From positions 6,825,001 through 6,889,000 of the forward strand of contig OX419756.1 of assembly GCA_948567375.1 (NCBI GenBank): 64,000 bases of DNA. The letters are read 5' to 3'. Both the position numbers and the translations under genes were made by a program. This document shows positions 6,339-61,372 of this stretch, piece by piece. A model generated the notes under the pieces. It saw only the letters and a program-made list of their open reading frames with translations, searched no databases and had not been told where the DNA came from. This DNA is from Lunularia cruciata (lineage: Eukaryota; Streptophyta; Marchantiopsida; Lunulariales; Lunulariaceae). The number at the start of each line of letters is the position of its first letter. Positions within the stretch are counted from its first letter, which is position 1.

Positions 6339-6343
6339 TCTAG

Positions 6344-8520: not shown

Positions 8521-8561
8521 TCTTGATCTCGAGTAGAGTAATTTCTTTCAGCTGTATTTAG

Positions 8562-11406: not shown

Positions 11407-11454
11407 TTTACCCCCGGACTAAGTTTTCACTTTGTCCTCAAAGTGAAGGTCTCT

Positions 11455-18524: not shown

Positions 18525-18528
18525 GTTC

Positions 18529-19078: not shown

Positions 19079-19349
19079 TGCTACTACCCTAATCCACTAC
19101 CCTCAATTTATCTAGTTGATTAACACATATATACAACACGTCCACTATTCTCCATAAGTTACAACTAGAAGTTTCAAGGGTTCCTCTGACACGGTGATCA
19201 TATGTAGAAAATCTTGCCCAAAGCATGAGGTGATGAATTGTGTGAAACAATGCTTTGGTAATATTTGGACATGAAAGTCCCAATGGTTTGGCGGAAGTGG
19301 ATTTGGTGGTCCATAAATTCTATCCATCCCACTCCTGCTCTGATACCAA

Positions 19350-19745
19350 TGTAAAATACAAAAACCGAGGAGAGAAATAGGAGAATGGAAACTCACATTG
19401 GGACATTTGAATGAGGGAAAACTCTGAATGCCTAGCATGAGCTTTGGCCTTGGTATTTATAGGTAGCATACAAGCCCCTTGAAGCTTCTCAAGAAGCTTC
19501 CTTGGAGTGCAAGCCAAGTTAACTAGGAAGCTTCTCAAGAAGCTTCCTTCTAGAAGCCACCTACTTGGCATGCAAGCTAAACTAGTTAGAAGCTTCTAGA
19601 AGCTACCTGCTTAGGGCACAAGTTAACTAGTTGGGAAGCTTCCCAAGAAGCTTGTTAGATGTTTCTAGAATATTCTAGGCTATTTTGTCTTATTATCTAC
19701 TTCATAAGCCCGACTAACTTCATCGCTAAACTCCATATTGTTACA
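19350..19745 (-). repeat. 5' LTR of family II copy a
   Basis: 396 bp; a deletion shortens one GAAGCTTC block relative to the 423-bp form. The tctag duplication follows at 19746-19750. The primer site is the complement of 19337-19348. Confidence 0.92.
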
Positions 19746-19757
19746 TCTAGGTTGTCC

Positions 19758-27280: not shown

Positions 27281-27515
27281 TGATGGAGATAATCTTTCAA
27301 CTTATGGATAAACTATCCATGAGAGTTAGATTAATATGCACTCTAGGATTTGATGTTGCTCTAGAAATCTTGGAGCAACCTGAACCTTTTGTGTTCCCTA
27401 GAGTGGATTATTCTCAGATGGTGTTAGTCATGTATATACTATATTAGTAATAGAGTGAGAGAAAAGAAAAGAGAAAAAAAAAATTAAGAGAAAAGAAAGA
27501 TAGTGAGGGGTTAAG

Positions 27516-30500
27516 ATGGGGAAACTTCCGGTTTTCTTTGGCAAGGATGGAGAAGATGTGGAGGCCTTTGTGAGAGACTTCAAGAGAGCTTGCATAGGAA
27601 ACAATGAGAGGAGGAAGAATGAGTGGGCCTCATTATTACCAGATTTCTTTGAGGATGCAGCACTTACATGGTATGAGTCAGAATACCAAAAGAGAGAGAG
27701 GAGAGAGGGGGAAGAGGAGTCTTGGGAGACTTTGACTTCAGCACTCATTGAGAACTTTCTTCCTGATGAGAGTTATGAGAGATTGATGAGTGAGGTTACA
27801 TTTCTCAAGCAAGGAGATGGAGAGAAAGTGAGAGTCTATGTGGAAAGAGTGGAAAAATTGGAGTCCAAATTTCGCATAGTGTTGAGGAAGGGTGGGGATG
27901 ATGTGGAGACTACAATGATTGGCATAGGGGCCATGCTCACCAAGAATTTTGTGGGAGGATTGAGACCACAAATTAGAAGCAAGGTGAGATATGAGAAACC
28001 TTCTTCCAAGGTTGAAGCTATCAAGATCGCAATTCGTATGGAGGAGAGTTTGGAAGGGGATGAGAGTGATTTGGTGGTGAAGGAGGTTGTGCATCCTCCT
28101 CAAGGCTACAAGTATGGTGGAACTTCTGATACTTTGGTGACAAGGGTTGCACCACAAGTAGTAGTTGCTCCAATTCTTGCACCTCCACCAAAAGATCCAC
28201 TCCAAACCATCACAGAACAACTTGCGGATCTCAAGATCAATGTGGTGCAACTATGGGAGAAGAGAAAGGTGGATCAGAATGTAGGGAGAGGACCTAGGAG
28301 TTATGGAAACTATCCATATAGAGGAGGCCAACCAGCCAACAATTTCAATGATAGAAATTGTTTTGGTTGTGGAGGAAGAGGCCATATCCAAAGGAATTGC
28401 CCAAATTCCACTTACCATGGAGGAAGGGGTTATGAGGGACCCAATAGAGGGAAAGAGGGAGGTAGTGAAACCCAAGTGGCTCCTAATCCCAACAAAGGTA
28501 AGGGGATAGCATCCATAGATGTGGTTGAGAGCAAGTATGAGAAGGGAGAGTGCTCAAACTCCAAGGGTCTTAATTTGGAGCTTTTGGCACAAGAGAAGAA
28601 GAGAGCTCGTTTTGCAGAGGATGTTCACTCTTCTCAAGGATTTACTTCAAGCAAGGATACTCCTATGTCTACTAGGAGCACTCGCACCTCAACACCATCA
28701 ACAACAAAGACTCCAAGGAAGAAGTTGGGGATGGAGGACTTCTTGATCTCAAAGCAACAATGGAACTACAATGTGTTGGAGGATGTTGGTAGTCACAAGG
28801 CTAACATCACAGTGGGCCAATTAATTGCTTTGAACCCTACCTTGAGAAAGGAGCTTAGAGGTGGTTTGAGTTCTACAAGGAGCAAAAAGAAGAAGAAGGC
28901 AAAAGTTCCAGTATCAATGGGGGTGGTGGATGCCAAGCCAGCACCATGGGAGGCTTGTGAATATGCCTCCAAGATTGATGTGAGAGTGAATGGTCACAAC
29001 ATCAAGGATGCATTGGTTGATGGAGGATCAGCAGTGAATGCCATGTCAGAAAGGTTGATGAAGAAGTTGGGTATGATACCCTCAAGACCTTCAACATTTG
29101 TGGTGAGCATGGCAAACAAGCAACAAGTTCGACCAGTAGGGGTGATGGATAAGGTGGTAGTTTCAGTTATGGGAGTTCAAAATCTCATGACTTTCCAAGT
29201 CTTGAAGGATTCAAGCTATGACTTACTTCTTGGGAGGCCATGGTTGAGAGCAGCACGCACAACTGATCGATGGCACAAAGGGTACTTGAGGATTGGGCCA
29301 TCAAACCATAGAGTCACTGTTCCTGTGACTAACACCACCAACACTTCACATTCAGATACCCCATCTTCTAATTATTGGGAATCAGATTCTGAAGAAGGAG
29401 CTTCAGGTGTGGACACAAGCATGGAAGAGGAGACTTCCACGGAGGAAGATGAATCTGAATCTGATTCAGATGTGTATCCCTTGTGTGCTATGGATTTTGC
29501 ACCTAAGCCAGAGGTTTTGAAGGACCCAGATAAATCACCATTGACACTTGAGGAGGTAGAGAGAAGGTTATCTACCCTCAAGTATGGCCCAAATGTTACC
29601 AAGGAGGAGAAGGTGAGATTTGAGGAGATTTTCCGCAAGTTCATCCATGTGTTTGCTTTTAGTTACAAGGATTTGAAGGAAGTCACCTTGGAGGAGCACA
29701 AGATAGAGGTGGAGTCACATGCAAGACCAATCCGCCAAAAGCAACGTCGCATTAGCCCACCAATATCTTTGGTTGTGAAGGAGGAGATTGATAAGCTCAA
29801 GGAGGCTGGATTTATCTTTGAGGTGGAGAATTCAGAATGGGTGTCTCCAATTGTCATTGTGAAGAAAAAGAATGGCAAGCTTCGGGTATGTGTGGATTAC
29901 AAGAAGCTTAATGCTGTTACCAAGAAGGACTACTACCCATTGCCATTCATTGATGAGATCTTGGAGGAGGTTGCAGGTCATAAGAGGTACAGTTTTGGAG
30001 ATGGTTATAGTGGATATAACCAAATAAAGATTGCACCAGAGCATCAACAACTCACAACATTCACCACACCTTGGGGAACTTACGCTTTCAAGGTCATGCC
30101 TTTTGGGCTTTGCAATGCTCCAGCCACATTCCAACGGTTCATGAACAAGGTATTTGAACCTTTCATTGGGAAATTTGTGAGAGATTTCATTGATGACTTT
30201 TGTGTCTATGGGAGCAAGGAGGAGCACTTTGAGCACCTAATCAAAGTCTTGCGACGCTTGGATGAGGCAAATGCATCACTCAACCCAGAGAAGTGCATTT
30301 TTGGATGTGAAGAAGGTCTACTTTTGGGGCACATCATCTCCAAGGATGGAATAGCAGTTGATCCTGAGAAGGTGAGGAAAATCTCAGACCTTCCATTCCC
30401 TTCAAGCTTGACAAAGTTACGCCAATTCTTGGGAATGGTTGGGTACTATAGGAGGTTCATCTTCTCATTTTCCAACAAGGCTTATGCATTGACCATCTAC

Positions 30501-32342
30501 ATGAAGAAGGGTGTAGATTACATGGTGATTTTGGAAGACAAGGAGGCTCTCAAAGCTTTTGAGGAGCTCAAGCAATCCCTTGTTGTAGCTCCAATTCTTG
30601 CTAAACTTGATTGGAGTAAGCCTTTCATCCTCTACACTGATGCTTCTAATGTAGCTATAGGATGCACTCTTAGTCAATTAGACCAAGATGGGCATGATCA
30701 TCCAATAGCTTATGCTAGTAGGCAGATGGTTTCAGCAGAGAAGAACTACTCTGTCACAGAGAGAGAAGGGTTGGCAGTGATCTTTGGTCTCAAGAAGTTT
30801 AGACACTACTTGATTGGAGGGAAGGCCACAATTGTCACGGATCACAAGGCTTTGAAGTACATCTTCAACAAGCCTAATGTTGAAGGGAGACTAGCAAGGT
30901 GGATGATACTCTTGTCTGAGTATGACTACACAATTGAGGATAGGCTAGGAAAGAAACATGCAAATGCTGATTTGTTATCTAGAGCCTATGATCATGATGG
31001 AGATGAGCCAGTAGATGATTCCTTCCCGGATGAGGAGCTCATGACAATCTCAGTCACTCAAGAGATTCCAATGGAGTACAAGGAGATTGTGGATTTTGTG
31101 ACAAGAGGTAACTATCCAGAAGGGATGCATGCTAGGGAGAGGAAGGCCCTTGCAGCAAGATCTAGACCTTACACAATGGTGGAGGATATTCTTTTTCACC
31201 AAGGAGCAGATGGTCTACTTCGAAGAGCAGTGGGTAAGGAAGAGTCTATCCTACTCATAAAGGAGTTTCATGAAGGTTTAGTATGTGGAGGACACTTTGC
31301 AGGAAAGGTGACTGCTTTCAAGATTCTAGATGCAGGTTACCATTGGAGAGGGATTTTCAAGGATTGTCTTGATTATTGCAAAACTTGTCATGTTTGTCAA
31401 GCTTTTGCTAGAAAGTCTACATCCACTCCACCACTTAGATCAATTCCATTGCTAGGACCTTTTGAGAAGTGGGGAATTGATTTTGTAGGACCTCTCAATA
31501 GAACCCCAAGGAACAATCGGTACATTGTGGTAGTTACTGATTACCTTACCAAGTGGGTTGAGGCTAGACCATTGAGGGACAAGAATGAAGATGAAGTGGG
31601 TAGATTTCTTTATGAACGCATTATCACTAGGTTTGGATGCCCTTTGGAGTTGGTTTCTGATAGAGGAGGAGAGTTTACAGGAAGCATTACTACAGCCATG
31701 CTACGACATTTCTCTATCACACATAGAGTAACTACATCCTATAAGCCAAATTCCAATGGCTTGGCAGAGAGAACCAATCAGACCTTGTGCATGATGTTGG
31801 CCAAAGATGCAGAAATGGAGGGGGCTAAACATCATTGGGACAAGAGGATTCATGCAGTTTTGTGGGAGTATAGGACAACCATGAAGACTTCCACTGGATA
31901 TTCTCCATTCCAATTGGTGTATGGTATTGAGTCTACCTTACCTATTCACTTTGATCTTCCTACCTTCCAAAGCATTCATAGGAGATTGAAGAAAGCACAA
32001 GGAAGTGATGCAGGGAAGTCAAGGAAGGATCAACTCATGGAGTTGGAAGAGGCAAGAGCAGTTGCTATGGTTCGAGTGGAGCAAGCCCAAAGGAAACAAA
32101 AGGAGAGCTATGACAAGAGGCAAGGCAAGAAGAAGGTGGAGCCTTTCAAAGAAGGTGATTGGGTAATGTTGTTTGATTCCATTCGATTCAAGAGAGTGCA
32201 AAAGAAGTTTTTGCCTAAGTACTTTGGACCTTTCATAGTAGAGAAGGTGTGGAGCAATTACACCTATGATCTCAAGGAGTTGGGAGGAAGACACTTTGAT
32301 AGGATTAACCATGATAAGTTGAAGATGTACCATAGAAGGTAG
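27516..32342 (+). CDS. Family I Gag-Pol polyprotein, copy B (intact)
   Basis: 1608 aa in one frame. It is the same as copy A except for scattered substitutions and two extra residues in the acidic Ser/Glu/Asp stretch after protease (residues about 640-652). Gag, CCHC knuckle, protease (DGGS), RT (FIDD), RNase H and integrase (D, D-35-E) all keep their key residues. There is no chromodomain. The poly-acidic linker between PR and RT is a feature of this family. The translation start is preceded by an A-rich leader (27460-27500). Probably competent for transposition. Confidence 0.95.
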   Translation: MGKLPVFFGKDGEDVEAFVRDFKRACIGNNERRKNEWASLLPDFFEDAALTWYESEYQKRERREGEEESWETLTSALIENFLPDESYERLMSEVTFLKQGDGEKVRVYVERVEKLESKFRIVLRKGGDDVETTMIGIGAMLTKNFVGGLRPQIRSKVRYEKPSSKVEAIKIAIRMEESLEGDESDLVVKEVVHPPQGYKYGGTSDTLVTRVAPQVVVAPILAPPPKDPLQTITEQLADLKINVVQLWEKRKVDQNVGRGPRSYGNYPYRGGQPANNFNDRNCFGCGGRGHIQRNCPNSTYHGGRGYEGPNRGKEGGSETQVAPNPNKGKGIASIDVVESKYEKGECSNSKGLNLELLAQEKKRARFAEDVHSSQGFTSSKDTPMSTRSTRTSTPSTTKTPRKKLGMEDFLISKQQWNYNVLEDVGSHKANITVGQLIALNPTLRKELRGGLSSTRSKKKKKAKVPVSMGVVDAKPAPWEACEYASKIDVRVNGHNIKDALVDGGSAVNAMSERLMKKLGMIPSRPSTFVVSMANKQQVRPVGVMDKVVVSVMGVQNLMTFQVLKDSSYDLLLGRPWLRAARTTDRWHKGYLRIGPSNHRVTVPVTNTTNTSHSDTPSSNYWESDSEEGASGVDTSMEEETSTEEDESESDSDVYPLCAMDFAPKPEVLKDPDKSPLTLEEVERRLSTLKYGPNVTKEEKVRFEEIFRKFIHVFAFSYKDLKEVTLEEHKIEVESHARPIRQKQRRISPPISLVVKEEIDKLKEAGFIFEVENSEWVSPIVIVKKKNGKLRVCVDYKKLNAVTKKDYYPLPFIDEILEEVAGHKRYSFGDGYSGYNQIKIAPEHQQLTTFTTPWGTYAFKVMPFGLCNAPATFQRFMNKVFEPFIGKFVRDFIDDFCVYGSKEEHFEHLIKVLRRLDEANASLNPEKCIFGCEEGLLLGHIISKDGIAVDPEKVRKISDLPFPSSLTKLRQFLGMVGYYRRFIFSFSNKAYALTIYMKKGVDYMVILEDKEALKAFEELKQSLVVAPILAKLDWSKPFILYTDASNVAIGCTLSQLDQDGHDHPIAYASRQMVSAEKNYSVTEREGLAVIFGLKKFRHYLIGGKATIVTDHKALKYIFNKPNVEGRLARWMILLSEYDYTIEDRLGKKHANADLLSRAYDHDGDEPVDDSFPDEELMTISVTQEIPMEYKEIVDFVTRGNYPEGMHARERKALAARSRPYTMVEDILFHQGADGLLRRAVGKEESILLIKEFHEGLVCGGHFAGKVTAFKILDAGYHWRGIFKDCLDYCKTCHVCQAFARKSTSTPPLRSIPLLGPFEKWGIDFVGPLNRTPRNNRYIVVVTDYLTKWVEARPLRDKNEDEVGRFLYERIITRFGCPLELVSDRGGEFTGSITTAMLRHFSITHRVTTSYKPNSNGLAERTNQTLCMMLAKDAEMEGAKHHWDKRIHAVLWEYRTTMKTSTGYSPFQLVYGIESTLPIHFDLPTFQSIHRRLKKAQGSDAGKSRKDQLMELEEARAVAMVRVEQAQRKQKESYDKRQGKKKVEPFKEGDWVMLFDSIRFKRVQKKFLPKYFGPFIVEKVWSNYTYDLKELGGRHFDRINHDKLKMYHRR

Positions 32343-41433: not shown

Positions 41434-42455
41434 AACTAGGTTCACCACTGCCATAGGTAACCTATCAGCCACTACTACTGTCTGAGACTGATGCCCAACA
41501 TCCAAGATATCATCAACAAGGATGTGGTCAAGTCATTGAATCCCATCATAAGCACGTTGTAGAACCTCTCTGGGTAAGAGGTTCGTCCACCAAAGACAAA
41601 GACGATGAGCCCGTGATCCCACTCTGGCTGCATCTAACAATACAGCTGGTCCCATCCAAGAATGGACCTGATGTGTACTCGCCACCACTCTAGTGCAAGA
41701 ATCACCCATCAAAGGAACGTTCTCCAAAAGGTAAGCTAGAGAAACAGATTGATGAACATGGAGATGTTGTAGTATCCATAACATCTCCCAAAACACACCA
41801 GAATGAGGATCCTGAAGACCCAATCCTCTACCAGCATGTGTATGTCCCTAACATGGCCATCCAGAAATCACCAAGTGAATAGGCCCATATCTCTCTAGGT
41901 TATGCGCCCCAGTAAGGAAATGTCTCCTAGTAGGGCCTTCTGATAACCTCTAAGTGCTGATATTGGTAATTACTCTGGATACCGATAGGCCAAGTGTGCC
42001 ACATGATGTTGAGAGACTCGCCTAGCAGTCTCATCTCTCTCTACATACAAGTACCTCTGTACTTGTATACCTGCCTGTAACACCGTAGCTAGTCCGGTGC
42101 TAATCCCATCAAACAACTTCAATAGGCATATCCCCTCTACTGGATTCTGCCAAGCAATGAGTGTGGTATCCAGAGGTGTCAAAGCAATTGCCTCTGGAGG
42201 CTCATCCTCACACTCATCTCCTGATGGTATGAAGGCTCCACTCCAAGCCTGCTGCACCAACTGATCTGCATGCTGCTGTAATGCCTCCTCTAAACTCCAC
42301 AATGGAACATCCAAGGTTGATGGAACAATCCCGCTTGTACTCCACAATTGAGTGATCTCCTCTGGTACTAGAGTATCCTCTGCATGGGCGTTCCCCTCCA
42401 ACAAGTCACCAAGCCAAGTAACTGCACCACTGAAAGCTAAAATTAATGCTGCCAT
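41434..42455 (-). pseudogene. DNMT3-like cytosine methyltransferase domain of family III, N-terminal and catalytic part
   Basis: The minus strand shows, in order: motif I LKLFDGISTG (about 42095-42130) followed by LQAGIQVQRYLYVERDE, as in DNMT3 (LFDGIATG ... GIQVDRYIASE); motif IV with the catalytic Pro-Cys at 41851-41856 in GPIHLVISGWPC, followed at once by a stop codon (41848-41850); the Glu-Asn-Val motif in AYLLENVPLMG; and motif VIII-like LLDAARVGSRAHR...WWTNLLP, matching DNMT3 DAxxVSAAHRARYFWGNLP. The C-terminal part is at 5561-6338. It sits between protease and RT in the polyprotein. Such enzymes methylate cytosine in DNA. Stops and a frameshift make it inactive. The 110 residues before motif I are not recognised. 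Confidence 0.85.
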
Positions 42456-42755
42456 GGTCTCGGACTATAGTGAGCCAAGATTGCCACTACTGAAGCGTAC
42501 TAGTAGGCGACATACCCGTCCCTCACCAGACTGCTAACCAGGTCTATAAGAGGATGTCTCCTCCCAATAGTCAATGCTAAAACCTATGGGGTATAACACT
42601 ACTCCCCCAAATAGCACATCATATGACTCAACTATTGTCGCAATAGCCTGAGCTCTCACCATCAAGCTATTAGTTGGATGACCAGGCTGAACTTGGACAA
42701 CAAGCTCTCCACGTGTGATGTATTGTGTTGAACCACCACCTAGAGATGTCTGGAT

Positions 42756-42974
42756 CTAAAATGGACACCTCTCCACATCGGTCTTCCGTAACTCCAAACC
42801 GACAATTGCAGCCTTCCCCAACATAAGGGGCTGCGCACCAGAGTCTAACAAGACTCTATGTGGTGTATAGACCTTCCCTAAAGGTCCCACCAAATGGAAA
42901 ATCCCCCTCTGGTTATCCAATAGGACAACATCAGGTGTAAACCGCGCTCTCTCAAAGGCCGGTCTAGCTGGCAA
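42756..42974 (-). pseudogene. Family III aspartic protease
   Basis: The active-site block VLLDSGAQPLMLGK (D-S-G-A) is followed by GLELRKTDVE, the expected pattern of a retroviral-type protease that processes the polyprotein. It is placed between the zinc knuckles and the methyltransferase. The frame closes on both sides, at 42974 and 42756. Confidence 0.8.
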
Positions 42975-42975
42975 C

Positions 42976-43659
42976 TCCTCCAGTCTAGCCGCTGCTGCTT
43001 GCTATAAACCACTGGTCGTTGAATAGATCCCATGCTCCTCAACCAAGTCAGCTCCACTACCAACCACCTCTGCTCTAGTAGTAAAAACTGCACCATCCCT
43101 ACTCTCACACAAAGTGGCAGCCAACCAAAATATTGGGGCTGGGTCAACTCCCAATGTAAACATATAACTGACCAAAAACAAAGGACGTCACATAATCAGC
43201 TGAGCCGCCCCCAACATCATGCTAGACTCAGTCTGTGTAGTAGTAGGTGGCTGACTAGCAGGTAGTCCATCATGTACTCCATCACCACCTACCACACCTA
43301 CACTGGGACGTCTAAGAATCATGGATGTTGTCTGCAATGCCTCAGATAGCGTGAAAGACTATGGAAGTCTAACCTGTCTCCCAACCTCTCCTCTTTGTGG
43401 GTCCAACTCCACTGATGCTCCTCTAGGCTCTGGAGCACATACTACACTCCTAGTCACTGCTGCAGATGCATCCACCTATGTTGCTCCTCACATGAAGTCC
43501 AAAGCATCTCTATCACCAGCATATGAGGTAGAAGCCTCAGCACCTGAATCTGATCTCCTCTGAGCAATAGCCATACTAGCTAATCTCTGCTCCAATTGCT
43601 CAATCAGAGTAGCCATAGTTGTGTCAGAAGTAAGGGCAAGTATTGCACCCCTACTAGGT
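42976..43659 (-). other. Family III spacer between zinc knuckles and protease
   Basis: Low-complexity remains of a polyprotein linker with many stops in all minus frames. No domain recognised. Confidence 0.5.
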
Positions 43660-44979
43660 GTAGATCCTCTACCACCACCTCGTCCTCCATGAACTAAACT
43701 CCTCTACTACTAGCCATAGTAGCCCTACCACTTCGTAACTCCGGGTGTAGGTCAAAACACCGATCACTAGTGTGACCAAATCTGTAGCAATGCTCACACT
43801 GCCTCTGTGCTGGCTGTGATGCATCCAAGGTATCGGGTCCACTGCCTTAAGTACACTCTCTTCGATGGTGAGGTCCACCACAAGTCCAACAAGCAACACC
43901 ACCACTCATTGGTTGTTGTTGACCCAAAAATGAGGGTAAGGGTCTAACTCCACTAGGCCCTCCACTTGCTCTATAGGATATGGGCTGTCCACCTTGTCCT
44001 CAAAAACCAACTGGGCGTGATGCACTATGCTGCACTCTAGAAGAAGTCACAGCCGTGGATGAGGTCTCCCTACCAAATCCAAATGTCACCACTCTCTCTT
44101 CCACCATATTGAGCTCAATACGCTCAGCCAAACCAAAGACTACTGCCAAAGTGGGCGAAGTAGCCTGCAACAACATAGCATCACGAACTCTACATCATAA
44201 CTCCTTGTCCAGTATCCCATACCAAAATTGGACTGCCTGGGCCTCAATAACTCCCTAAGTGAAACTGATCAGCCACCTCATGCAAGTGTATGCCTCGCAT
44301 AGGCTCTCTCCAGCCTTCCGCTGGAACTCCTGCAAGCTCTTCAGCTTGTCAATCCGCACTCCCTGGTAGTTCTGCCTCAAACACAGGAAGAACTCCACTA
44401 TGGGGTTAAACCCCGATACCACACCACCTCTTGCAGCAGTGCCTCCACTCGTAGTAGCACTATCTCCAGCTAGTGCACCTCCACTAGCTCCACCCACACT
44501 ACTCGAGCTAGAACTCGTAGGTACAGCCGATCTACTCCTGGCCACCAAGCCTTAAGTGATGGAGACATAGTGTGGAGACCAATCTGTCTCCATAACTCAA
44601 TCTCCTCCAAATGAGCTCTCCTAAACTCATGGTAGTCATCCATCGGCGGACCTTCCAGATGCTGAAACAACCCCTTCCATGCCATGAAGGGTATGAACAA
44701 ATTTGGGTTCCGCATCTACTACAAATCACACCAACTATCAAACCCCTGGATGTAGTCATCCAACTCAATGGTACCCACTATACCAGAGTAACGCCTAAGG
44801 CCTTTGGAGGCCCCATAAATCTAGTCCATGTCCCACAACAATGGTGCGGACACACCAAGTGCACTCTCAACTGAATCAACTCTTGTGTCGAACTCCAACT
44901 CAGAGTCAATCTCCTCCCTCACTGGGACTTGAGATACAAGCTGATATCGAGCACCACTTTGAGTAAACCCATTGTGTAC
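43660..44979 (-). pseudogene. Family III gag with two zinc knuckles
   Basis: Gag core pieces: FMAWKGLFQHLEGPPMDDYHEFRR region at 44470-44715 and the FRQ/SLQEFQRKAGESLCEAYTCMRWL block at 44255-44548, a typical retrotransposon-gag motif. After a Ser/Gly-rich linker, the minus strand near 43700-43890 reads CWTCGGPHHRREC (C-x2-C-x3-H-x4-C) and CEHCYRFGHTSDRC (C-x2-C-x4-H-x4-C), two tandem zinc knuckles for RNA binding. The N-terminal end is cut by a family I solo LTR. Several stops are present. Confidence 0.78.
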
Positions 44980-45658
44980 TATGAGCCGGCCTGTCTCTCA
45001 CTCAGGATGAACCTCTGATGGCTATTATGGTAGCGCACCATGGACTAAGAAGGCAAGGAACCCCAACTCCATCATACTCCTCCAAGGCTAACACTCCAAG
45101 ACTCAAGACATTGCTCACTAGAGAACTCAATGAGAGAGAGATAGTTGCAAATGAAAGGATGATGAGTACCTCCTCACTCCTTGTTTATATACTTGTGAAA
45201 TAGTTACGTACCAAAGTTACTAATTACCGTAGTAACTCAAGTTACTAGACTAAAAGTCAAGTAAAGTCAAAAAGTAGAAAGGAATATCCATTCACATGGG
45301 CATATTCCCCTTATCTTGACCCAACCACTAAAGCAAGGATTCCTTCACATGGGCTATCCTTGGACTAAAGAAGAATCCAAAACAAAAAGGCTTGCGGGCC
45401 CAAGAGTTCTCAACTCTTTCCCCAAAGCCAAACACCTAGGAATAATACCAAGTCAACACACTAAAATCCAAAATAGTGGTGCTCATCTTTTCTACTTCCT
45501 CTAAAGTAAGGTCCCATCTATCTTAGCTATGACTAACTTTAGCTAACCATGACTAATATAGAACCATCCTTTATCTCTATATAAATAATATCTCTTAAGT
45601 ACTTGTAATACCAAGCTAAATATCACAATACCACACACATGCACAAATGGGTGTTACA
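44980..45658 (-). repeat. Family I solo LTR in family III gag/leader
   Basis: 679 bp; the first base pair is TA instead of TG. The 4-bp duplication gtac is exact (44976-44979, 45659-45662). No internal family I sequence, so it is a recombined solo LTR. Confidence 0.93.
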
Positions 45659-45662
45659 GTAC

Positions 45663-47041: not shown

Positions 47042-47493
47042 ATGTAATCAGATTGCTTACCACTCTCAACTCAACTCAACATAGATCAGTACTTGATCTG
47101 TCACTCTATAAACTGCCAACAACTGGGCATTGATTACAGTCAAGCCACACCCACTCAAGCATAGAGAATCTAGGTGACGCTCGCCAGCTTCTGTCCATCA
47201 TAGCTAGGAACTCGAAGGCTCAACATCAAAGAAGTGAGCTCTTTGGAGCTCACTTCAAAACTATACCCCCTGGACTCGAGCTAGCTCTGAAACCCTAATG
47301 GTCCCACTGATGGCACACTCGACGGTGTGAACGGTGCAAAGTGACGGTGGGCCCCACCGTGAAGTCAGTACCCCAAACACAAAATCTGACCATCGGAAAG
47401 TAGTCTTTGAGAAATTGCTGACATAACTCTAACTACTATCATTGGAACTCCAGTGTTTGAGCATCTAGATGCGGCACTACAAATGGCGTGACA
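47042..47493 (-). repeat. Family III right terminal repeat (Q copy)
   Basis: Similar over its whole length to 1942-2390, with roughly 5-8 % differences. It ends GCGTGACA, then resumes the family II LTR at 47494. It lacks the 105-bp R block found on both sides of the left copy. Confidence 0.75.
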
Positions 47494-47652
47494 ACTTCCT
47501 TCTAAAAGCTACTTACTTGAGGTGCAAACAAAGCTAGTCGGGCAGCTTCCCAAGAAGCTTCCTAGGTATTTCCGGAATATTCTAGGCTAATTTGTCTTAT
47601 GTGCTACTTCGTAAGTCTGACTAACTTCGTCGCTAAACTCCATATTGTTACA
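47494..47652 (-). repeat. 3' LTR of family II copy c, second part
   Basis: Continues the LTR left at 1835 and ends ATTGTTACA. It joins the chromovirus internal region at 47653. Confidence 0.88.
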
Positions 47653-48995
47653 TATTCCCTTGCGGCTAGTTGGTGACGACCTTGTCGCCAATGAAGCTTT
47701 GAAGTCCTGGATGGCCGTCTGTGCATTCTCGAGGTGAAAAAGAGGTTCCTATGTGGCATCATGAAGGGGATACCCTTTCCAAAGGACCTTGTACTCTGTA
47801 TGTTGGCGATGGCCTCGTTGAATATGGCAACGCGCAAGGATACAATCAACTTTGTACTCCTCATGATCATTGATAAGGATAGGAAGAGGGGGAGGTTGGA
47901 CGAGAGGAAAAGGAAAATGGGTTAGGAACAAAGAGTTTCAACTTGGAAACATGAAAGATAGGATGGACACACATGTGACAAGGCAAGGCAAGTCGATAAG
48001 CAATAGGAAAGACAATTTGATGATATCAAAGGATCCTAGCCAATTAGGGGCAAGTTTACGAACTTGGGTATCAAGGAGGAGAGTGAGGTTACTAGAGGAT
48101 AACGTGACTTTATCACCAACTTCATAGGTGAGATCACGACAATGGTGGTCCGCATATTGTTTTTGGCAATTCTGAGCAACAAGGAAGTGAGACTTGGCTT
48201 GTTGGAAAGATTGGGATATAGTGGTCAAGAATGTGGAAGTATGAGGAACCTGAGATGGAGGGAGAGCAAGAAGAGAATCGGGAACAAGCGGATTTTGGCC
48301 AAAATTGAGAAAGAAAGGAGAAAATCTGGTGCTTGCCTATTTGGAATTGTTGTAGTCAAATTCTGCAGCTGCAAGACATTCATCCCAATTGGTATGGTAG
48401 ACATTGACAAAGGCACGCAACATATCCTCCAATAAAGGATTTGCACGTTTGGTTTGTCCATCAGTTTGAGGATGATAGGCTGTGGACAAAGCAAGCTTGG
48501 TGTCGAGTATCTAGAAGAGTGCTTGCCAAAACTTCTTGGTAAATCAAGGATCACGGTCGGAGATGAGTACATGTGGCATCCCATGATGCTTGAAGATAAT
48601 GTTGAAATAGATTTGCGCTAAGGTTGGAGCTCCACGGTAGCACAGGTTGGTGCCTAGTGGATTTGCTTACTAAGCTTATCCACAAACACCACAATTGCAG
48701 TGTGTCCTTGTTTTGTCTTTGGCAAGAATGTGAAAAGATCCAAGCTCATATGCTCCTATTGAGCGGATGGAACGACAAGTGGTTGAAGGAGTCCACTCGG
48801 CTTTTGGTTGCTAGCCTTGTTACATTGGCAGCTCTCACACGATCAGACAAATTCTTGAACATCTTGTGTCATGTTGGGCCACCAACATTGACGTTGGAGG
48901 GTACCCAAGGTCTTGTCCACACCCATGTGACCAGCGATGGGTAAATCATGGGCTTCTTGAAGGCGCACAAGTTGAAGATCACCTTTAGCTAGAAC
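47653..48995 (-). pseudogene. Copy c: integrase and chromodomain, decayed
   Basis: Chromodomain remains (47749-47931: EEYKVDCILARCHIQRGH, EYKVLWKGYPLHDAT) and integrase C-terminus (47938-48228: YEVGDKVTLSSSNL) are in different frames. Integrase core positions are recognisable by nucleotide similarity to 20481-21860 but contain many stops. A family I solo LTR cuts the region at 48996. Confidence 0.82.
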
Positions 48996-49674
48996 TGTAA
49001 CACCCATTTGTGCATGTGTGTGGTATTGTGATATTTAGCTTGGTATTACAAGTACTTAAGAGATATTATTTATATAGAGATAAAGGATAGTTCTATATTA
49101 GTCATGGTTAGCTAAAGTTAGTCATAGCTAAGATAGAGGGGATCTTACTTTAGAGGAAGTAGAAAAGATGAGCACCACTATTTTGGATTTTAGTGTGTTG
49201 ACTTGGTATTATTCCTAGGTGTTTGGCTTTGAGGAAAGAGTTGAGAACTCTTGGGCCCGCAAACCTTTTTGTTTTGGATTCTTCTTTAGTCCAAGGATAG
49301 CCCATGTGAAGGAATCCTTGACTTAGTGGTTGGGTCAAGATAAGGGGAATATGCCCATGTGAATGGATATTCCTTTCTACTTTTTGACTTTACTTGACTT
49401 TTAGTCTAATAACTTGAGTTACTACGGTAATTAGTAACTTTGGTACGTAACTATTTCACAAGTATATAAACAAGGGGTGAGGAGGTACTCATCATCCTCT
49501 CATTTGCAACTATGTCTCTCTCATTGAGTTCTCTAGTGAGCAATGTCTTGAGTCTTGGAGTGTTAGCCTTGGAGGAGTATGATGGAGTTGGGGTTCCTTG
49601 CCTTCTTAGTCCATGGTGTGCTACTATAATAGCCATCAGAGGTTCATCCTGAGTGAGAGACAGGCCAGCTCATA
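48996..49674 (+). repeat. Family I solo LTR in family II copy c
   Basis: 679 bp; the terminal CA is changed to TA (ends GCTCATA). The 4-bp duplication gaac is exact (48992-48995, 49675-49678). Confidence 0.93.
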
Positions 49675-49678
49675 GAAC

Positions 49679-51925
49679 ATAGATCCGGTCCTCATGGAAT
49701 AAAAGGCCCTCCTTGATGGAGAAGGTGTTGTACTGCTTATCACATGCCGTAAGGCGACCATATACCATTTGGAAGAAGGGATCTTGGTGTAGAGCTGACT
49801 GAAACTTGTTTTGGACCTTGGAGTCAACTGACACTGTTGAAATTGCCGCTGTGATGAGAGGAAGAGACTTCAAATCAGGTCTTCGTGATAAAGCATGACG
49901 GATGACATGGAATTGACCTGGTTTGTACTCAAGTTTGATGTCATATAATTGGATTTGTTCCTCCCATCAATGATGTCGACTCTTCATGTGTTCCAAGTGT
50001 AAGGTCTGTAACAATGGTTTGTGATCAGTTTGCATGATCACTTGTTTCCCCAAGAGGTAATACCTCCATACCTTAGTGGCGTATACCATTGCAAGTTGTT
50101 CTCAATCTCAAGCAGAGTAATTTTGTTCAGCTATATTGAGTCGGCAAGACACAAAAGCAATGGGATGGAGTCCATCTGGGAATTCTTGTTGCATCATAGC
50201 TCCAATTGCAAATTTAGAAGCATCAAAATCAACCACACAAGGTAGTTGAGGATCATATGGTTGAAGAATGGGTCTTGAAGACACCATATGATTTAACTTT
50301 TGGAATGCTTCTTCATGCTTGGTGGTCCACTAGAGCTTGAGTTCTTTCCCAAGAGGTCAGTCAATGGTGCAGCCACATGAGCATAATAATGGATGAACCG
50401 TCGGTAAAAACTGGCCAATCCATTAAATGCCCATACTTTTGTAGCATCCTTGGGGGTAGGCCAATCAGTAATGGCCTTGATTTTCTCTTCTTCCATCTTG
50501 ATCCCCTCTGATGAGATCTTATGATCCAAGAAAGTAACCCCCTTTTGCCAAAAGGTACACTTTGACTTCTTGTAGTAAAATTTCCATTGTTGTATTCATC
50601 TTAGGACTTCTCACACATGATTCATATGTTCTGCCTCTGTCTTGCTATAGATTAAGATATCATCCAAGAACACCACCACAGACCGATCCAATAGTCTATC
50701 CAACATCGGATGCATTTGATCCATGAAGATAGTTGGAGCATTCGTGAGTCCGAGAGATAGAACTCTCCACTCAAAATGCCCATACTTGGTGCAAAAGGCA
50801 GTCTTTTGCACATCCTCTCTATCAATAGGAATTTGCCAATAGCCGCTTCAAAGATCCAACTTGGAAAAGTAGCATGCTCCACTTAGTTGATCAAGCAAGT
50901 CATCGATCCAAGGCAAGGGATATGCATTCTTCATAGTTTGCTTATTGAGCCCACGATAATCAATACAGAAACAAAGTCCTCCATTCTTCTTTGGAACAAA
51001 TAGTACCAGTGCTCCCCAAGGAGAGGTACTATGTTGTATGAAGTCCTTCTCCAACAACATTGTAAGTGTTTTTTGCAACTCCTCTAACTCCTTTGGTGAG
51101 ATCCAATAGATCAGTCTACTCACTAAAGTACTCCCTGGCAATAGCTTGGTCTTGAAGGGCATACCTCGATTGGAGGGTAATCCCTTTGGCAGATCATCTA
51201 GAAACACATCCGCAAACTCCTATCAAATCAACCATTGCTTGATGACGCTCTTGGCTCTTAGCAAATTGTTCTTGTACAATCAACTTGATCGACATCGCGA
51301 ATACAGACTTATCTTCCTCCAAAGCTTGCTCTATGGCTCCTTTACTAACAAACTTCCCTTCTAAGGACTCATCTCTCTTCCAAGCTTGCTCCTTGGTTGC
51401 CTTCTTGGCAAACTTCCCATCTTGGGACTCATCTTCTTGCCATGTTTGCTCTATGGCTACCTTCTCAACAAACTTCCCATCTTGGGACTGACAATTCTTA
51501 GGTGTCTTACTCAGAAGTGCCAGACAACCTAATGGGAAATTCCTACCTTGGTGTTGTACTTGAATTTGGTGTCGGGTCCAATCAAATTAAACCTTATGAT
51601 ATTCAAACCAAGGTAGACCCAGAATGATATCATAGTGTAGAGGTGCCACTACAAACCTCATACACTCCAAATACTCCTTCCCAATCTTGAAAGTAATAAG
51701 ATGCAAGGTGCGGAATGCATAACCTTTTCTACCATCCGCCATCATCAAACTACTTCCAATCACTGGCTTGATAGGAATACCCAATTCCTTTGCTACTTGC
51801 GTAGACATGCAATTCTTTGAACTTCCAGAATCAACCAAAATCTTACAACCCCGATTAGATATCGTACCTTGCAAATGAAGCAAACTTGCATAGGTCGAGC
51901 CTTCAATCCCTTTGGAACTAATCAA
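49679..51925 (-). pseudogene. Copy c: RNase H, reverse transcriptase and protease, decayed
   Basis: Pieces in order down the minus strand: protease (51587-51925, KILVDSGSSKNC), linker and RT fingers (50848-51207, [20 protein letters not shown]), RT palm (50611-50811, [12 protein letters not shown]), thumb (50293-50529, [19 protein letters not shown]) and an integrase N-terminal segment (49670-49873). Each is in its own frame; many stops. Confidence 0.85.
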
Positions 51926-52862
51926 GCTCCCAGTAGGCGGCTCAAAATCTCCTATTGGGATTCTTTGTTTCCCTGATCATTCTGCTCCACAACCTCCACT
52001 TGGGCAACTTGTCAAGGTCATCCATTCTTGAGTGGACACCAACAATGCGATGCCTTAATTGGCAACAATAAAATCACCCACCATTTTGTTGCACTTTCTC
52101 TCTATATGCCGTACCAAGTGGTCTTCATTGAATGATATCAATCTCCATTGGTGCTGGCTCCTCCACTTGTGTGTAGTGTATTGGTAGGCTCTGTGGAGGT
52201 CAAGGTCAAGGTCAAGGCCAAGTTGTTGTCACCAAGGAATCAAAATGTTTGGCCAACCGCATAGCTTCCTCCAAGTGTTGTGGCTCTTGCATGGTTACCT
52301 CTAATTTGGTTCTCGCCTTCAAGCCCCTCACGAATCGATTCAGAGCTTCACCTTCCAATATATCTGGAATTTGCATGATGGTGTTTTAAAACTATGTGAT
52401 GTAACTTCTTATAGAGCCAATCTGTTTCAACTTTGCCAACTTATCCCGTGCAGCTCGTGTGGTATTTATAGCTTGGAATTGACTAATTATTGCGCTCTTG
52501 AATTCTAACTATGTCAAGATTGGTGCAACAATTTGTTGTTTAGCTTGCTCCACTCAAAATCTCCACCATAGCTTTGCTACTCCATCCAATTGGCTAGAAG
52601 CCAAGAGAATCTAATTTTGCTCGTCCTATAGATTGGTAGCTTCAAAATAACATTCACAATTAAACAAAAAATTCTCCATTGCACCCAAAAGATTCTTGCC
52701 TTCAAATACCTTGGGTTTAGGGAATCTGATTCGATCTTCTCCTTCTCAAATTGGTACTCTCTCCACCTGCTCTTGTTGTCAAAGATCTCGTTCATCCAAC
52801 AATCAAGTAAGGTGCTCAATTTGTTTTTGCATAGTAAGGATAACAACGGGTATTGCCGCCAT
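51926..52862 (-). pseudogene. Copy c: gag, decayed
   Basis: The start codon (MAAIP) is at 52862 with in-frame stops soon after. The gag core (FCLIVNVILK, LLANWME in shifted frames) and a damaged zinc knuckle near 52070 are recognised by alignment with copy b. Confidence 0.78.
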
Positions 52863-53124
52863 AGTTGCTACTCTATCAAACCACCCCTAATCTATCTAAT
52901 TTACTAACACATAGAAACAGCTCATTCACCGTTCTCCATAAGTTACAACCGGAATCACCAAGGGTTCCTCAGATATAGTGATCATATGCAGAAAATCTTT
53001 TCCAAAGTGTGAGGTGATGAATTGTGTGAAACGTTGCTTGGGTAGTATTTGGATGTAAAAATCCTAATGTTTTGGTGGAAGTGGTCCATAAATTCCATCC
53101 ATCCCATTCCTGTTCTGATACCAA

Positions 53125-53550
53125 TGTAAAAGACCGAATCCAAGGAGAGAAATAGGAGAATGTAAACTCACAATGGGACACTTGAATGAGGGAAAACTCC
53201 AAATGCCTAGCATGAGCTTTGGCTTTGGTATTTATAGGTAGCATACAAGGCCTTTGAGAAGCTTCTCAAGAAGCTTCCTCAAGCCGCTTTCTTAGAGTGC
53301 AAACCAAGTTAATTAGGAAGCTTCTCAAGAAGCTTCCTTCTAGAAGTTGTCTACTTGGCGTGCAAGCTAAGCTAGTTGGAAGCTTCTAGAAGCTTCCTTC
53401 TAGAAGCTACTTACTTGAGGTGCAAGCTAAGCTAGTTGGGAAGCTTCCCAAGAAGCTTCCTAAGTACTTCTAGAATATTCTAGGCTAATTTGTCTTATGT
53501 GCTACTTTGTAATCCCGACTAATTTCATTGCTAAATTCCATATTGTTACA
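53125..53550 (-). repeat. 5' LTR of family II copy c
   Basis: 426 bp. The primer-site complement at 53112-53123 has one mismatch to initiator tRNA-Met (gttctgatacca). The TATA box and GAA/TTC array are preserved. Confidence 0.92.
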
Positions 53551-54170
53551 TTTTGCCAATCGCATGGCTTCCTCTAAGTGTTGTAGCTCTTGCATGGTTA
53601 CCTCTAATTTGGTTCTCGCCTTCAAGCCCCTCACAAATCGATCCAGAGCTTCACCTTCCAATATATCTGGAATTTGCATGATGGTGTTTTGGAACTACGT
53701 GATGTAACTTCTTATAGAGCCAATCTGTTTCAACTTTGCCAACTTATCCCGTGGAGCTCGTGTGGCATTTTTAGCTTGGAACCCACTAATTTTTGCGCTC
53801 TTGAATTCTGCCCATGTCAAGATTGGTGCAACAATTTGTCGTTTAGCTTGCTCACTCGAAATCTCCACCATAGCTTTGCTACTCCATCCAATTGGCTAGA
53901 AGCCAAGAGAATCTATTTTCGCTCGTCTTGTAGATTGGTAGCTTCAAAATAACATTCCAGATGAAATAAAAAATTCTCCATTGTACTCAAAATATTCTTG
54001 CCTTCAAATACCTTGGGTTTAGGGAATCTGATCCGATCTTCTCCTTCTCGAATTGGTACTCTCTCTACCTGCTCTTGTCGTCGAAGATCTCATTCATCCA
54101 ACAATCGAGTAAGGTGCTCGATTTGTTGCTGCATAGCAAGGATAACATTGGGTATTGCCGCTATGGTTGC
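53551..54170 (-). pseudogene. Copy d: N-terminal gag
   Basis: Continues the gag of the outermost element left at 1564. The start codon is changed from ATG to ATA (about 54164) and stops interrupt the frame. Its sequence closely follows 52300-52862 of copy c, so copies c and d belong to the same subfamily. Confidence 0.82.
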
Positions 54171-54435
54171 TACTCTATCATACCACTCCCAATCTATCTA
54201 ATTTATTAGTACATAGAAACAACATGTGCACCGTTCTCCATAAGTTACAACCAAAAGCACCAAGGGCTCCTCAGATATGGTGATCATATGCAAAAAATCT
54301 TGTTCAAAGTGTGAGATGATGAATTGTGTGAAACGATGCTTGGATAATACTTGGATGCAAAAATCCCAATGGTTTGGTGGAAGTGGGTTTGGTGGTCTAT
54401 AAATTCCATCCATCCCATTCTTGCTCTGATACCAA

Positions 54436-54846
54436 TGTAAAAGACCGAATCCAAGAAGAGAAATAGGAGAATGGAAACTCACATTGGGACACTTGAATGA
54501 GGAAAAACTTTGAATGTCTAGCATGAGCTTCGGCTTTGGTATTTATATGTAATATAGAAGGTCTTTGAGAAGCTTCTCAAGAAGCTTCCTTGAACCACTT
54601 TCTTAGAGTGTAAGTCAAGTTAACTAGTAAATTTCTCAAGAAGCTTCCTTTTAGGAACCGTCTATTTGGCATGCAAGCTAAGCTAGTTAGAAGCTTGTAG
54701 AAGCTACCTGCTTGGGATGCAAGTTAACTAGTCGAGAAGTTTCCCAAGAAGTTTCCTAGATGCTTTTGGAATATTCTAGGCTAATTTGGCTTATTCCCTA
54801 CTTAGTTAGCCTCACTAGCTACGTCATTAAACTCCATATTGTTACA
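54436..54846 (-). repeat. 5' LTR of family II copy d
   Basis: 411 bp, the most diverged family II LTR here, with several GAAGCTTC modules mutated. The primer site complement is at 54423-54434. This is the right edge of the whole nest. Confidence 0.9.
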
Positions 54847-58177: not shown

Positions 58178-60882
58178 TTAGTTGATTACATAGACAAGAT
58201 CGTCGGGATTCACGATACAATCCTTTGATGGGTTGGTGAGCACGTAAGAGGTCGGGGCACCGAGGTTTCCCCGCACACGGTACAGACCAATGACCAACAT
58301 GTTCGTTTCGTGAAGAAAATACGTGAAGAGTTTTTTATAGGGTTTATTGGCGTATGCTGCTGGCACTCCTGTTTGCTCTAAAATCCGCTGGCGGTCTGGA
58401 CTCAGACCATCTTTCGTGTTGGCATACCCTCCCTGTATTAACTGCTCCACGACTGAAATCGTGTTCCGATTGTAGAAAGAGGAACGCCTGTTTGACAGAC
58501 ATGAAGAAATAACAAGGATCAGTATTCACCAAAGATTAGATGGCAGACCCGCGATATCATAAACTTTAGCTTTTGGACTGAACTGTCAGCTTGCCTACAT
58601 GTACGTATTCTAAATCTAACTCCTGAAGTTCAAGACTAATGTCTATTATGCTCCTAAAATTCATTGAACAAGGAAGCATACGAGCAAAACAAGCTGTTTC
58701 AGAGTACGATATCTTCTGAAACAAGGGTCTCGATTGAACTAGCCATGTATTTCTGATTTAAAGGGATAGAAGAGGAACGAAGTGAGCTTTCTTGATGGGT
58801 TCCTGAGGGGCTTTGTTTAACACTGCATGTAAAAAAGGACCAGTAGCAGTGTAAATATTTCAGAAACAGGTAAGCAGAGAGGTTCACCCACACATTACCA
58901 GCTGGAGCCGCTACAGTTAGCTGTGTAGAGTTCAGACAGTTGATCAAGAATTATCTGTGCGGCTCAGACTAAGTAAAGGACTCTGAAATGTAAGTTTGTT
59001 ATTACCAACGGTAGATGTAACTTCTCGGTAGTTTCGGACTCTTTTACTTTTCTTTCTACATAATTATGTTAGGATGTAGGCTGTGACCTGCAGTTCAGTA
59101 AAGCCTCTTCAGAAACAAATAATCACAGTGGTCAACCATTGCATCCACTTTTCACCATGTATTACAGAAATATTTGTGTCGTACTTCCGAAGATCAAACA
59201 TGAAAAAGACGTCCTAAAGAGCTTAAGCTCAACTGAAATATTTAGTGGAGTTCATGTAGTATTACCAGTTAGCAGACTACGAAAAATCTGAAAAAATCAA
59301 GAGTGAAACCGATCAGCTCTAGCACATCTGAGAAACTAAAACTAAACTTGACTCACATGAGAAACCCCAGCATCGTTAAGGAGACGGCTTTTCCTTCCAT
59401 GTAAGGAGGTCCAAAGTGGATAAGTGCTTCTCTATTGCGCCTGAAGTCCACTTTCTCGAACTGTGAGAAAGAGATTCTGTAATGTGGTCGCAAGTAATGG
59501 AATGCATTAGCGTGCTGCATTTCCACGATAAGTTTCTCCACAACTTCATCTCCATATAATCGCTGCACATTGGCTGCAACTACAATGTTTTCTACATCGC
59601 TTGTGTAGGCTGCAGGGTTTCGATTCGCATATCTGTCATCCATAACTCCAGCTCCAGCGATATCGACAGATTCTCCTTGATCAGCCAGTATCACGACTTT
59701 TGCTGCAAGGGAAGGCTGGGTTTAGATGACAATAAAAAATGTGGACAGTAACAACACAGTGTATTACTACTGTCTATTATTAAATATGATATTCAAGTCT
59801 TCTGAGAAGTCCTGAAGGTAAAAGAAATACCAAACGCATAAGGCTATGGCAAACCTATGCTAGCTACTAATGATACCTGCTTGTAAAACGCCACCTCGCA
59901 TTAGGTCCAGCTCGTACTTCGGGAATCCTTTTAGGAAAAATACATCTTCGAACATGCCAACCGATCCCCATTGAATCACAGTCGGTTCTCCCGGGAAGAG
60001 AATGACAATTGGAGGATTGGAAAATTTCGGGTTCCGAAACTCCGCAAGGAAATAGAAAAGATTCGTAGGCCAACCCGATTGGCAACAGACAAGGATATGT
60101 GGTATATTAAATGCCACCATGCTTATCGTTCTGTCTTGCAGATTTTTCAAGATCACTTTTTCACTTCGTTGGAGAATACCAGGATATGGTGGTTCAGTCT
60201 TGCGAGTTGGAGGCCATGCGAGAAGTTCTGCAGCTACTTTTCCTAAAGACAAACCCTGTAAAAACTCAAACCCAGAACCAGTTCCCGGATTATTATTACT
60301 AAAATTTGAACCATCTCTTTCGCCTCTCTCAACCTGTGGGATATTTTTGGCGGCAGAGGAAATGTTCTCTCCGACAGCACTCGGACCAGCTCTCCAATTG
60401 GGGAACTCCTCGTCAGTGTATACCTCCTGTATTGCTGACCTGAACTGCGTTTCCAGTCCAAACTCACTATCTAGGTCATCGGGAAATACCCGAGAGCTCT
60501 GAACTCCAAAAGTAGCTTCTGTGCTCATTAGGGGACCTCGACCAAAGAAAGAACCTGACACGCTCCGGGTAACACGCTTTAGTAGTCCGACCGCTTCTGA
60601 ACTTGTTTCGCTGGGCTCTTCTCTCCATTGAAATAAGTTCCACAGCTTTTGAGTGACACCAGAAACCTCGACATCATCTTGCTCTGTCAAAGAAAACCTT
60701 GAGATAGCAAACGCCGTATATAGCTCACTTGTGATAACAAGTCCAACATCGCCAGGCCTAATAAGCTGACCTTTTGGGAACAATAAGACTTTGCGGCTTC
60801 TTGCCCTATTTAATCGTGAGGTTACTGAAGTATCAAGAGCAAAAAGGGTACTGTTGAAAATGTCAAATATCATATCTGCAGC
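58178..60882 (-). CDS. BK/Slo-type calcium-activated potassium channel, C-terminal three exons
   Basis: Exons 60882-59877, 59702-59357 and 58487-58178 (stop) on the minus strand, about 553 aa. Junctions fit: acceptor TGTGCAG before GCTGCA; donor GTATCA, acceptor TTGCAG (phase 1); donor GTGAGT, acceptor AAACAG (phase 2). The protein matches the cytoplasmic gating ring: AADMIFDIFNSTLFAL and LIRPGDVGLVI (BK EAVDMCFNKLGLLL ... KPGMKGFII), the second RCK domain (PHILVCCQSGWPTNLF, VGMFEDVFFLKGFPKYELDLMRGGV), ILADQGES, and the tail NMLVIGLYRVRG ... SYVLTNPSKDCIVNPDDLVYV (BK NMLCFGIYRLRD ... [20 protein letters not shown]). The pore and first RCK domain should lie further upstream, beyond the copia element. 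An acidic or Ser-rich 110-residue insert (about residues 75-190) separates the blocks. Such channels are missing from flowering plants as far as I know. Intact over the visible exons. Confidence 0.85.
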
Positions 60883-61372
60883 CTGCACAGACTACTATTA
60901 TATCAGTGAATAATTTGTGACTAGGACTTTCAACTTGACTGGTACTCTACTGCATCAGGAATCCATTTCTAACAGTTAAAAGTAGTTTAGTCTTTGACAA
61001 TGTTACAGATAAATCAATTAGGGGCAATACATGGAAACAGAGCACCGAATAGGCTAGATATCAAGGTCACATGCGTCTGATCTAACAGAACGTGCTCTCA
61101 AAAGTGCTCAAGGATCTGCGTTAAAACATGGTCAATCCTTGTTGTCGGTCACACGACTGTTGAGCTGTTCACACAGTTCTTCAGCTCATATTGTAGACCA
61201 AACAGTTGACGACACAATACCGAGAATACATTTATTCACTTACCTTGTCACGTGTAGGCTAGATAAGCAACTAGAAGGTGAAGGATACAATTATGATGGC
61301 AATTAGAAGCTTATTACGTGGTCAAAGTTTCTTCATATCGAGGAGTTCTAATATTTGAAGTGAAGTCAATGG
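60883..61372 (-). other. Intron or upstream region of the channel gene
   Basis: A consensus donor GTAAGT occurs on the minus strand at 61243-61238 (after CAAG), but the sequence before it has an in-frame stop, so no coding exon can be called. Confidence 0.4.

Follow-up and report, generated by a model that had tools for sequence, protein, structure and literature searches.

The closest described system to the element reported here is KnitGypsy-Dnmt3 of Klebsormidium nitens, in which a Dnmt3 lies in the Pol open reading frame of an LTR Gypsy element whose repeats have the DIRS structure, that is, the order A-coding region-B-A-B (de Mendoza 2018, PMC5890265). In the literature searched, the name KnitGypsy turned up in this one paper. 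According to the passages of that paper drawn on here, its authors still classed KnitGypsy as an LTR Gypsy despite these repeats, the dinoflagellate captures of DNMTs concern LINE and DIRS elements and not gypsy elements, and de novo CG methylation in yeast was shown for SymbioDIRS-Dnmt3 and was inconclusive for KnitGypsy-Dnmt3 (PMC5890265). In the portions consulted, a later article cites this report and gives LTR Copia where the 2018 paper has Gypsy (PMC12344493), and another treats the host plant DNMT3, with no DNMT retrotransposon in it (PMC6453930).

Here we analysed a window, the whole 64,000-nucleotide stretch of DNA, for which an earlier note had proposed a Ty3/gypsy element with a DNMT3-like methyltransferase between protease and reverse transcriptase. 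The window holds a single copy of the methyltransferase-bearing element, and all of the conclusions below are drawn from that copy.

Results

Extent of the element and the insertions within it

The host element of the methyltransferase occupies positions 1836-47493 on the minus strand; its Pol domains, which include a DDE integrase, are of the gypsy type. Self-comparison by BLAST and translation revealed that two insertions, forming a nest of 35 kb, interrupt it, and that it also carries stops and frame shifts. Both insertions sit in the methyltransferase region. One is a gypsy element on the plus strand (19757-41430) of a family here called family A, which contains an element of a second gypsy family, family B (with another A-family element inside), plus a solo B-family LTR; the other is a B-family element on the minus strand (6343-19746) that contains an A-family element. 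(The letters A and B without the word family denote the repeats of the methyltransferase-bearing element.) About ten bases of the host element (19747-19756, minus strand) remain between the two insertions, as read from the junctions, and a solo A-family LTR, 97.7-99.9% identical to the window's other full-length A-family LTRs, lies within the element at 44975-45660. The earlier note had regarded the copy as degenerate and its methyltransferase region as split by 35 kb of later insertions, and both statements are borne out, the former by the stops, at least one frame shift and the nest, and the latter by the self-BLAST analysis.

The element itself landed inside a B-family LTR, whose flanking parts are 1564-1835 and 47494-47652 (self-BLAST). 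In the same comparison, the B-family elements at 1-1835 and 47494-54846 seem to be arranged in tandem, apparently with common LTRs, and the element sits in one such LTR. Elsewhere in the window, a Slo-like calcium-activated potassium channel gene, apparently belonging to the host, is represented by pieces on the minus strand at 58178-60891 (PF22614, 1.3e-10, at 59860-60891; PF21014, 1.5e-8, at 58178-58525), and a fragment of a Copia-type element with a GAG-pre-integrase domain (PF13976, 1.3e-11) lies on the plus strand at 62976-63437.

A decayed methyltransferase between protease and reverse transcriptase

The stretch 41435-42464 (minus strand) encodes a DNMT3-type C5 cytosine methyltransferase with motifs I to VIII, decayed by stops and at least one frame shift, as judged by profile, PDB, block and tblastn matches. 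The C-terminal block of the enzyme lies at 6070-6342 (minus strand), with motif IX-X at 6239-6111. Since searches of PDB, PHROGs and Pfam with the 70-aa C-terminal piece alone returned no methyltransferase, this block is assigned by the DNMT3A block scan described below and by its place between the second insertion and the reverse transcriptase. The motifs listed in the earlier note were recovered by translation, all on the minus strand: LFDGISTG of motif I (42116-42093), the Pro-Cys of motif IV (ending at 41851), a Glu-Asn-Val (inside 41730-41707), an AHR-type motif reading SRAHR (41616-41599), and the C-terminal block with EREQAMGF of motif IX-X (6233-6210). They are flanked by the DSGA of the protease (42851-42831) upstream and the YIDD of the reverse transcriptase (5091-5080) downstream, on the same strand, and the protease core (42851) and the N-terminal methyltransferase stretch (42116) share one reading frame. 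The presence of a decayed DNMT3-type methyltransferase between the protease and the reverse transcriptase of a gypsy-type element was thus confirmed.

In database searches, the read-through piece matched the DNA methyltransferase profile PHROG_116 (7.6e-10), PHROG_363 (1.3e-7) and TIGR00675 (9e-4; 19 bits, far under its cut-off). Pfam PF00145, which the earlier note had singled out as a check, also matched, at E 0.0017, but under its cut-off. The 164-aa N-terminal ORF alone matched nothing in Pfam or PHROGs, and among the 30 distinct PDB sequences that it retrieved at E<=10, 29 were DNMT3A/B/C (best 0.0072) and one was a serine protease. The second half retrieved 34 distinct PDB sequences at E<=10, namely 29 of DNMT3 (best 4.5e-4), four of DRM2 (0.94-0.96) and one of M.HaeIII (0.68), and matched PHROG_363 (3.6e-6) and PHROG_116 (1.6e-5), while the 104-aa ORF alone had no PDB match. 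DRM enzymes have a circularly permuted motif order; a DRM-type enzyme was rejected, as motif I here precedes motifs IV to X and the DRM2 matches were as weak as given above. The order I-IV-VI-VIII-IX-X is instead the canonical, unrearranged one, as in the eukaryotic Dnmt3 family. Penicillin amidase for the 104-aa piece (E 0.017 / 0.037, under cut-off, overlapping weakly with the region of motif IV) and VapB11 for the C-terminal piece (E 0.35, equivalent to chance) were also discarded. A search of viral contigs, sensitive to close relatives only, gave two pattern matches for the methyltransferase half, neither of them confirmed, and no match for the integrase-PHD piece.

We also compared these results with chance expectation. 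When the whole window was searched with human DNMT3A by tblastn, the top two pieces both fell at the site, at 42131-42039 (E 1.0e-4) and 41901-41578 (E 1.8e-4), in motif order, and the next-best match had an E of 5.1, while the best DNMT3A match in 20 codon-shuffled windows reached 0.082. Six ungapped blocks of human DNMT3A were then scanned against the 127,744-127,930 six-frame positions of the window. As a result, the motif I (z 8.9) and motif IV (z 7.0) blocks ranked first, the motif IX-X block ranked first of 127,744 positions at 6239-6111 (z 6.3), and the motif VIII block ranked third, whereas for two of the six blocks (motif VI and ARKGLYEG...) the expected sites were not among the top four. 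On the block-scan ranks and the tblastn comparison with the 20 shuffles, a chance likeness was rejected.

Relationship of the enzyme to DNMT3 and phage methyltransferases

In motif order, and in sequence at motifs I, IV, VIII and IX-X, the element's enzyme resembles DNMT3A and DNMT3B; identity is 29% over 189 aligned positions for DNMT3A and 26% over 208 for DNMT3B. It differs from DNMT3A in having GLGLQDPHS in place of GLYEGTGR, and in its location inside a retrotransposon. All 11 of the DNMT3-like methyltransferases compared from tailed phages (e.g. Escherichia phage PaulScherrer and Croceibacter phage P2559Y) showed 26-32% identity over 139-221 positions; these are free-standing phage genes, unlike the enzyme embedded in Pol, and QD-P/E-x-S occurs at the GLGLQDPHS site in two of the three phage rows printed. 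By tblastn, the read-through piece matched 169 phage records at E<=0.1 (best E 2e-13), with less than 30% identity in all of the 20 best rows. Human DNMT3A itself matched 250 phage records at E<=1e-5, so that DNMT3-type enzymes are common to phages and DNMT3.

In the pairwise comparison, the 11 phage enzymes scored 49.7-69.7 bits against the element's enzyme, DNMT3A scored 58.5 and DNMT3B 53.9; eight of these phage rows had been chosen from the element's own matches, which favours the phages, and the three chosen via DNMT3A matches scored 49.7-53.5, below DNMT3A. M.HhaI gave no alignment at E 10. In a tree of 15 rows (the query, two DNMT3, 11 phage enzymes and M.HhaI), the element stood on a long branch with phages as the nearest rows by path, and the program warned of a possible false joining of the DNMT3 and query branches. 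With phage enzymes of this type reaching scores similar to those of DNMT3A/B, DNMT3 is used here as the name of a type and not of a proven clade. These comparisons support the label DNMT3-type for the enzyme, with no firm grouping with DNMT3A/B.

Gag, Pol and a PHD finger

The other domains of the element, all on the minus strand, are those of a gypsy-type retrotransposon. Two gag CCHC zinc knuckles (43757-43891) were read by eye from the translation, and the aspartic protease core (42757-42920) was recognised by its DSGA motif; neither the two gag pieces upstream of the knuckles (at E<=1) nor the protease piece 42756-43001 had a Pfam match. The reverse transcriptase with YIDD (4861-5277; PF00078, 4.2e-25), RNase H (4364-4954; PF17917, 2.2e-32), the DDE integrase core (3253-3768; PF00665, 3.9e-6, 27.5 bits, under the curated cut-off of 32.6) and the C-terminal part of the integrase followed by a PHD finger (2659-3252, with the finger at about 2811-2659; PF00628, 1.4e-5, 25.5 bits, over the cut-off of 24) lie in one orientation between the repeats. 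The domain order PR-RT-RH-IN is that of Ty3/gypsy, and it is this order, with the Pfam families, that the label gypsy denotes; the Pfam scans of the named element pieces contained no tyrosine-recombinase family. The Pfam Pol domains, the PHROG and PDB matches, the block scan and tblastn thus support the proposal of a Ty3/gypsy element with a DNMT3-like methyltransferase between protease and reverse transcriptase.

The PHD finger and the split repeats described below are features absent from the earlier note. The C-terminal region of the integrase before the finger reads FHLGDYVYL... CHLPNIDG. In PDB, the finger resembled the PHD fingers of KMT2D (3.6e-6), an MLL3 homolog and DPF3, at 3.6e-6 to 4.1e-5. 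Of its C4-H-C3 ligands, the first four Cys and the sixth ligand are present, Tyr stands at the place of His, and the last pair is missing from this frame.

Split repeats and element ends

The element begins with A1, a 449-bp 5' terminal repeat starting with TGTCACG (47045-47493, minus strand), which is 92.65% identical to a second copy, A2 (1942-2389, minus strand; self-BLAST and letters). A 106-bp repeat, B1 (2392-2497, minus strand), is separated from A2 by the two bases GC and is identical at 105 of 106 positions to the terminal repeat B2 (1836-1941, minus strand), which ends with CGACA. The order on the minus strand from 5' to 3' is thus A1, coding region, B1, GC, A2 and B2, that is, A-coding-B-A-B. 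The B1-GC-A2 junction is the palindrome GACAGCTGTC, and the outer ends of the element, TGTCACG...CACGACA, are TG...CA termini. Directly before B1 lies AGGGGGG (2501-2507, minus strand), which by its letters is a candidate polypurine tract. On the outside, comparison with five other B-family LTR copies indicated a probable 4-bp target duplication in the B-family LTR, AAGT on the 5' side (47494-47497, minus strand) and AAGC on the 3' side (1832-1835, minus strand); the two copies differ at one base, and one of the five LTRs compared also has AAGT there.

B1 and B2 are the only copies of B in the window, and none follows A1; A is likewise confined to A1 and A2, short weak matches aside. The window's two other gypsy families have conventional LTR pairs (self-BLAST). 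The element does not show a pair of equal LTRs with a primer site immediately behind the 5' one: its repeats are split, and no TGG directly follows A1. The first TGG after A1 is at 47016, and TGGTATC at 46991 has seven bases in common with the initiator-Met primer site.

Decay and relative ages

The A repeats of the element (92.65% identity) are only slightly more diverged than the LTRs of the B-family insertion (93.2%, 6344-6754 versus 19350-19746), so that, on that scale, the element was hit soon after landing. The two LTR parts of the A-family insertion are 97.0% and 93.5% identical, and the youngest insertions have values of 99.3-99.9%. Two A-family copies (11455-16284 and 27507-32342) have uninterrupted frames of 1609 and 1611 aa and LTR pairs that are 99.6% and 99.9% identical, and are therefore recent insertions.

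Alignment of A1 with A2 over 446 bases gave 32 differences, namely 31 transitions (13 in CG, 10 in CHG and 8 in CHH contexts) and one transversion. Such a pattern would be consistent with plant-like methylation in three contexts, for which the host may be responsible. Five pieces of the element gave observed/expected CpG ratios of 0.29-0.50. The ratio was 0.15 for an A-family element, B-family pieces had 0.46 and 0.57, and the 54.9-61.9 kb stretch reached 0.74. The methyltransferase element does not stand out in its CpG depletion, the A family having the lower value. In contrast to A1 and A2, B1 and B2 differ at one of 106 positions, where 6.1 to 7.6 differences would be expected from A1/A2 (P 0.016 to 0.004). 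One common age with A1/A2 does not explain this excess likeness, for which gene conversion over 450 bp is a possibility.

Discussion

Domain content and order, the arrangement of the repeats and the lesions are observations on the element itself. We consider it likely that it is a dead gypsy-type copy whose Pol carried a DNMT3-type methyltransferase between protease and reverse transcriptase and a PHD finger after the integrase, with A-coding-B-A-B repeats, and that it is a member or a near relative of the KnitGypsy-Dnmt3 kind. According to the published description, KnitGypsy-Dnmt3 likewise combines the gypsy domain set, including an unrearranged Dnmt3-type domain inside Pol, with repeats in the order A-coding-B-A-B (PMC5890265); the likeness is drawn from that description, and the copy here is broken. 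SymbioDIRS-Dnmt3 also has Dnmt3 in Pol and A-coding-B-A-B repeats (PMC5890265), but it uses a tyrosine recombinase, whereas the element here has a DDE integrase core, TG...CA ends and a probable short duplication. The earlier note's assignment to the group of de Mendoza 2018, as a member or relative, is supported and is strengthened by the repeat order, and the element is probably a new case of the KnitGypsy-Dnmt3-like kind. That the architecture is constitutive would follow by analogy with the published family, one copy being at hand here. The term PHD does not occur in the main text of PMC5890265. In a limited search at the level of titles and abstracts, the only like case of a PHD finger beyond a gypsy-like integrase was a Ginger1 DNA transposon, Ginger1-9_HM of Hydra, in which the finger is C-terminal to a Gypsy-like integrase/transposase; this transposon also has Ulp1, and in the text consulted RT and methyltransferase are not described for it (PMC2836005).

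Other readings of the locus account for parts of these data. A different gypsy lineage might have captured a DNMT3-type or phage-like methyltransferase independently, with the resemblance to KnitGypsy-Dnmt3 due to convergence. The bit scores of the phage enzymes, which bracket those of DNMT3A and DNMT3B, the replacement of GLYEGTGR by GLGLQDPHS with its phage counterparts, and a tree that leaves the place of the enzyme open would all suit such an event; nevertheless, we regard it as rather unlikely, because the published description likewise has a gypsy domain set with these unusual split repeats, the reported dinoflagellate captures are in LINE and DIRS and not in gypsy elements (PMC5890265), and most of the phage rows came from the query's own matches, those selected via DNMT3A scoring below it. 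That a fragment of a host Dnmt3 gene or pseudogene dropped by chance into an ordinary gypsy element after insertion appears very improbable: a single copy was seen, as this would predict, but the N-terminal methyltransferase stretch is in the frame of the protease core, the C-terminal block is in place beyond the nested insertions, and a family of the same make-up has been published (PMC5890265).

The repeats could also have arisen by later rearrangement of an ordinary LTR element, in which B disappeared from the 5' LTR and a copy of it was placed just before the 3' LTR. The closer likeness of B1 to B2 than of A1 to A2, and the resemblance of A and B together to one TG...CA LTR, are both as expected from such a history. 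We find it improbable all the same, since two precise events at a single boundary would be required, a related family is described with the same order (PMC5890265), and the other two gypsy families of the window have conventional LTR pairs. Finally, a likeness of the methyltransferase that is due to chance or to a generic SAM-binding fold is hardly conceivable. The single motifs are short, PF00145 stays under its cut-off and two of the six DNMT3A blocks missed their site, but against this stand the PHROG_116 match, phage matches down to 2e-13, and DNMT3A pieces whose E values, in motif order, are far below the best of the shuffled windows.

In the living element, the methyltransferase would have been made as part of Pol, and may have methylated the element's own new DNA, either the cDNA or a fresh insertion. 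The integrase would have acted at the TGTC...GACA ends, with a short duplication of the target as the outcome, and the PHD finger may have guided it to chromatin of a given histone state. Chromodomains in chromoviruses are thought to guide integrase to chromatin. Since the copy is broken, none of these activities is possible now.

A more speculative reading, to which we give little weight, is that the element, whose gypsy-type Pol would unite an epigenetic writer, the DNMT3-type enzyme, with a reader, the PHD finger, moves via a circle. Reverse transcription would yield repeats of the form B-A, and the DDE integrase would cut at GACA-GC-TGTC on the B|A junction and not at the outer repeat ends. 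With a cut at this palindrome, the inserted copy, A-coding-B-A-B with TG...CA ends, would be a two-repeat circle opened there. Integration of a circular intermediate is otherwise linked with tyrosine-recombinase elements. The split repeats on an element with a DDE integrase raise a concrete question about the integration route.

The PHD finger suggests that the element described here read histone marks besides writing DNA marks. In our limited search, the literature seen offered DNMT-carrying gypsy elements from one alga. Should the host here be another species, the association would have been seen twice, both times with these odd repeats, which would speak for a lasting lineage and not a one-off.
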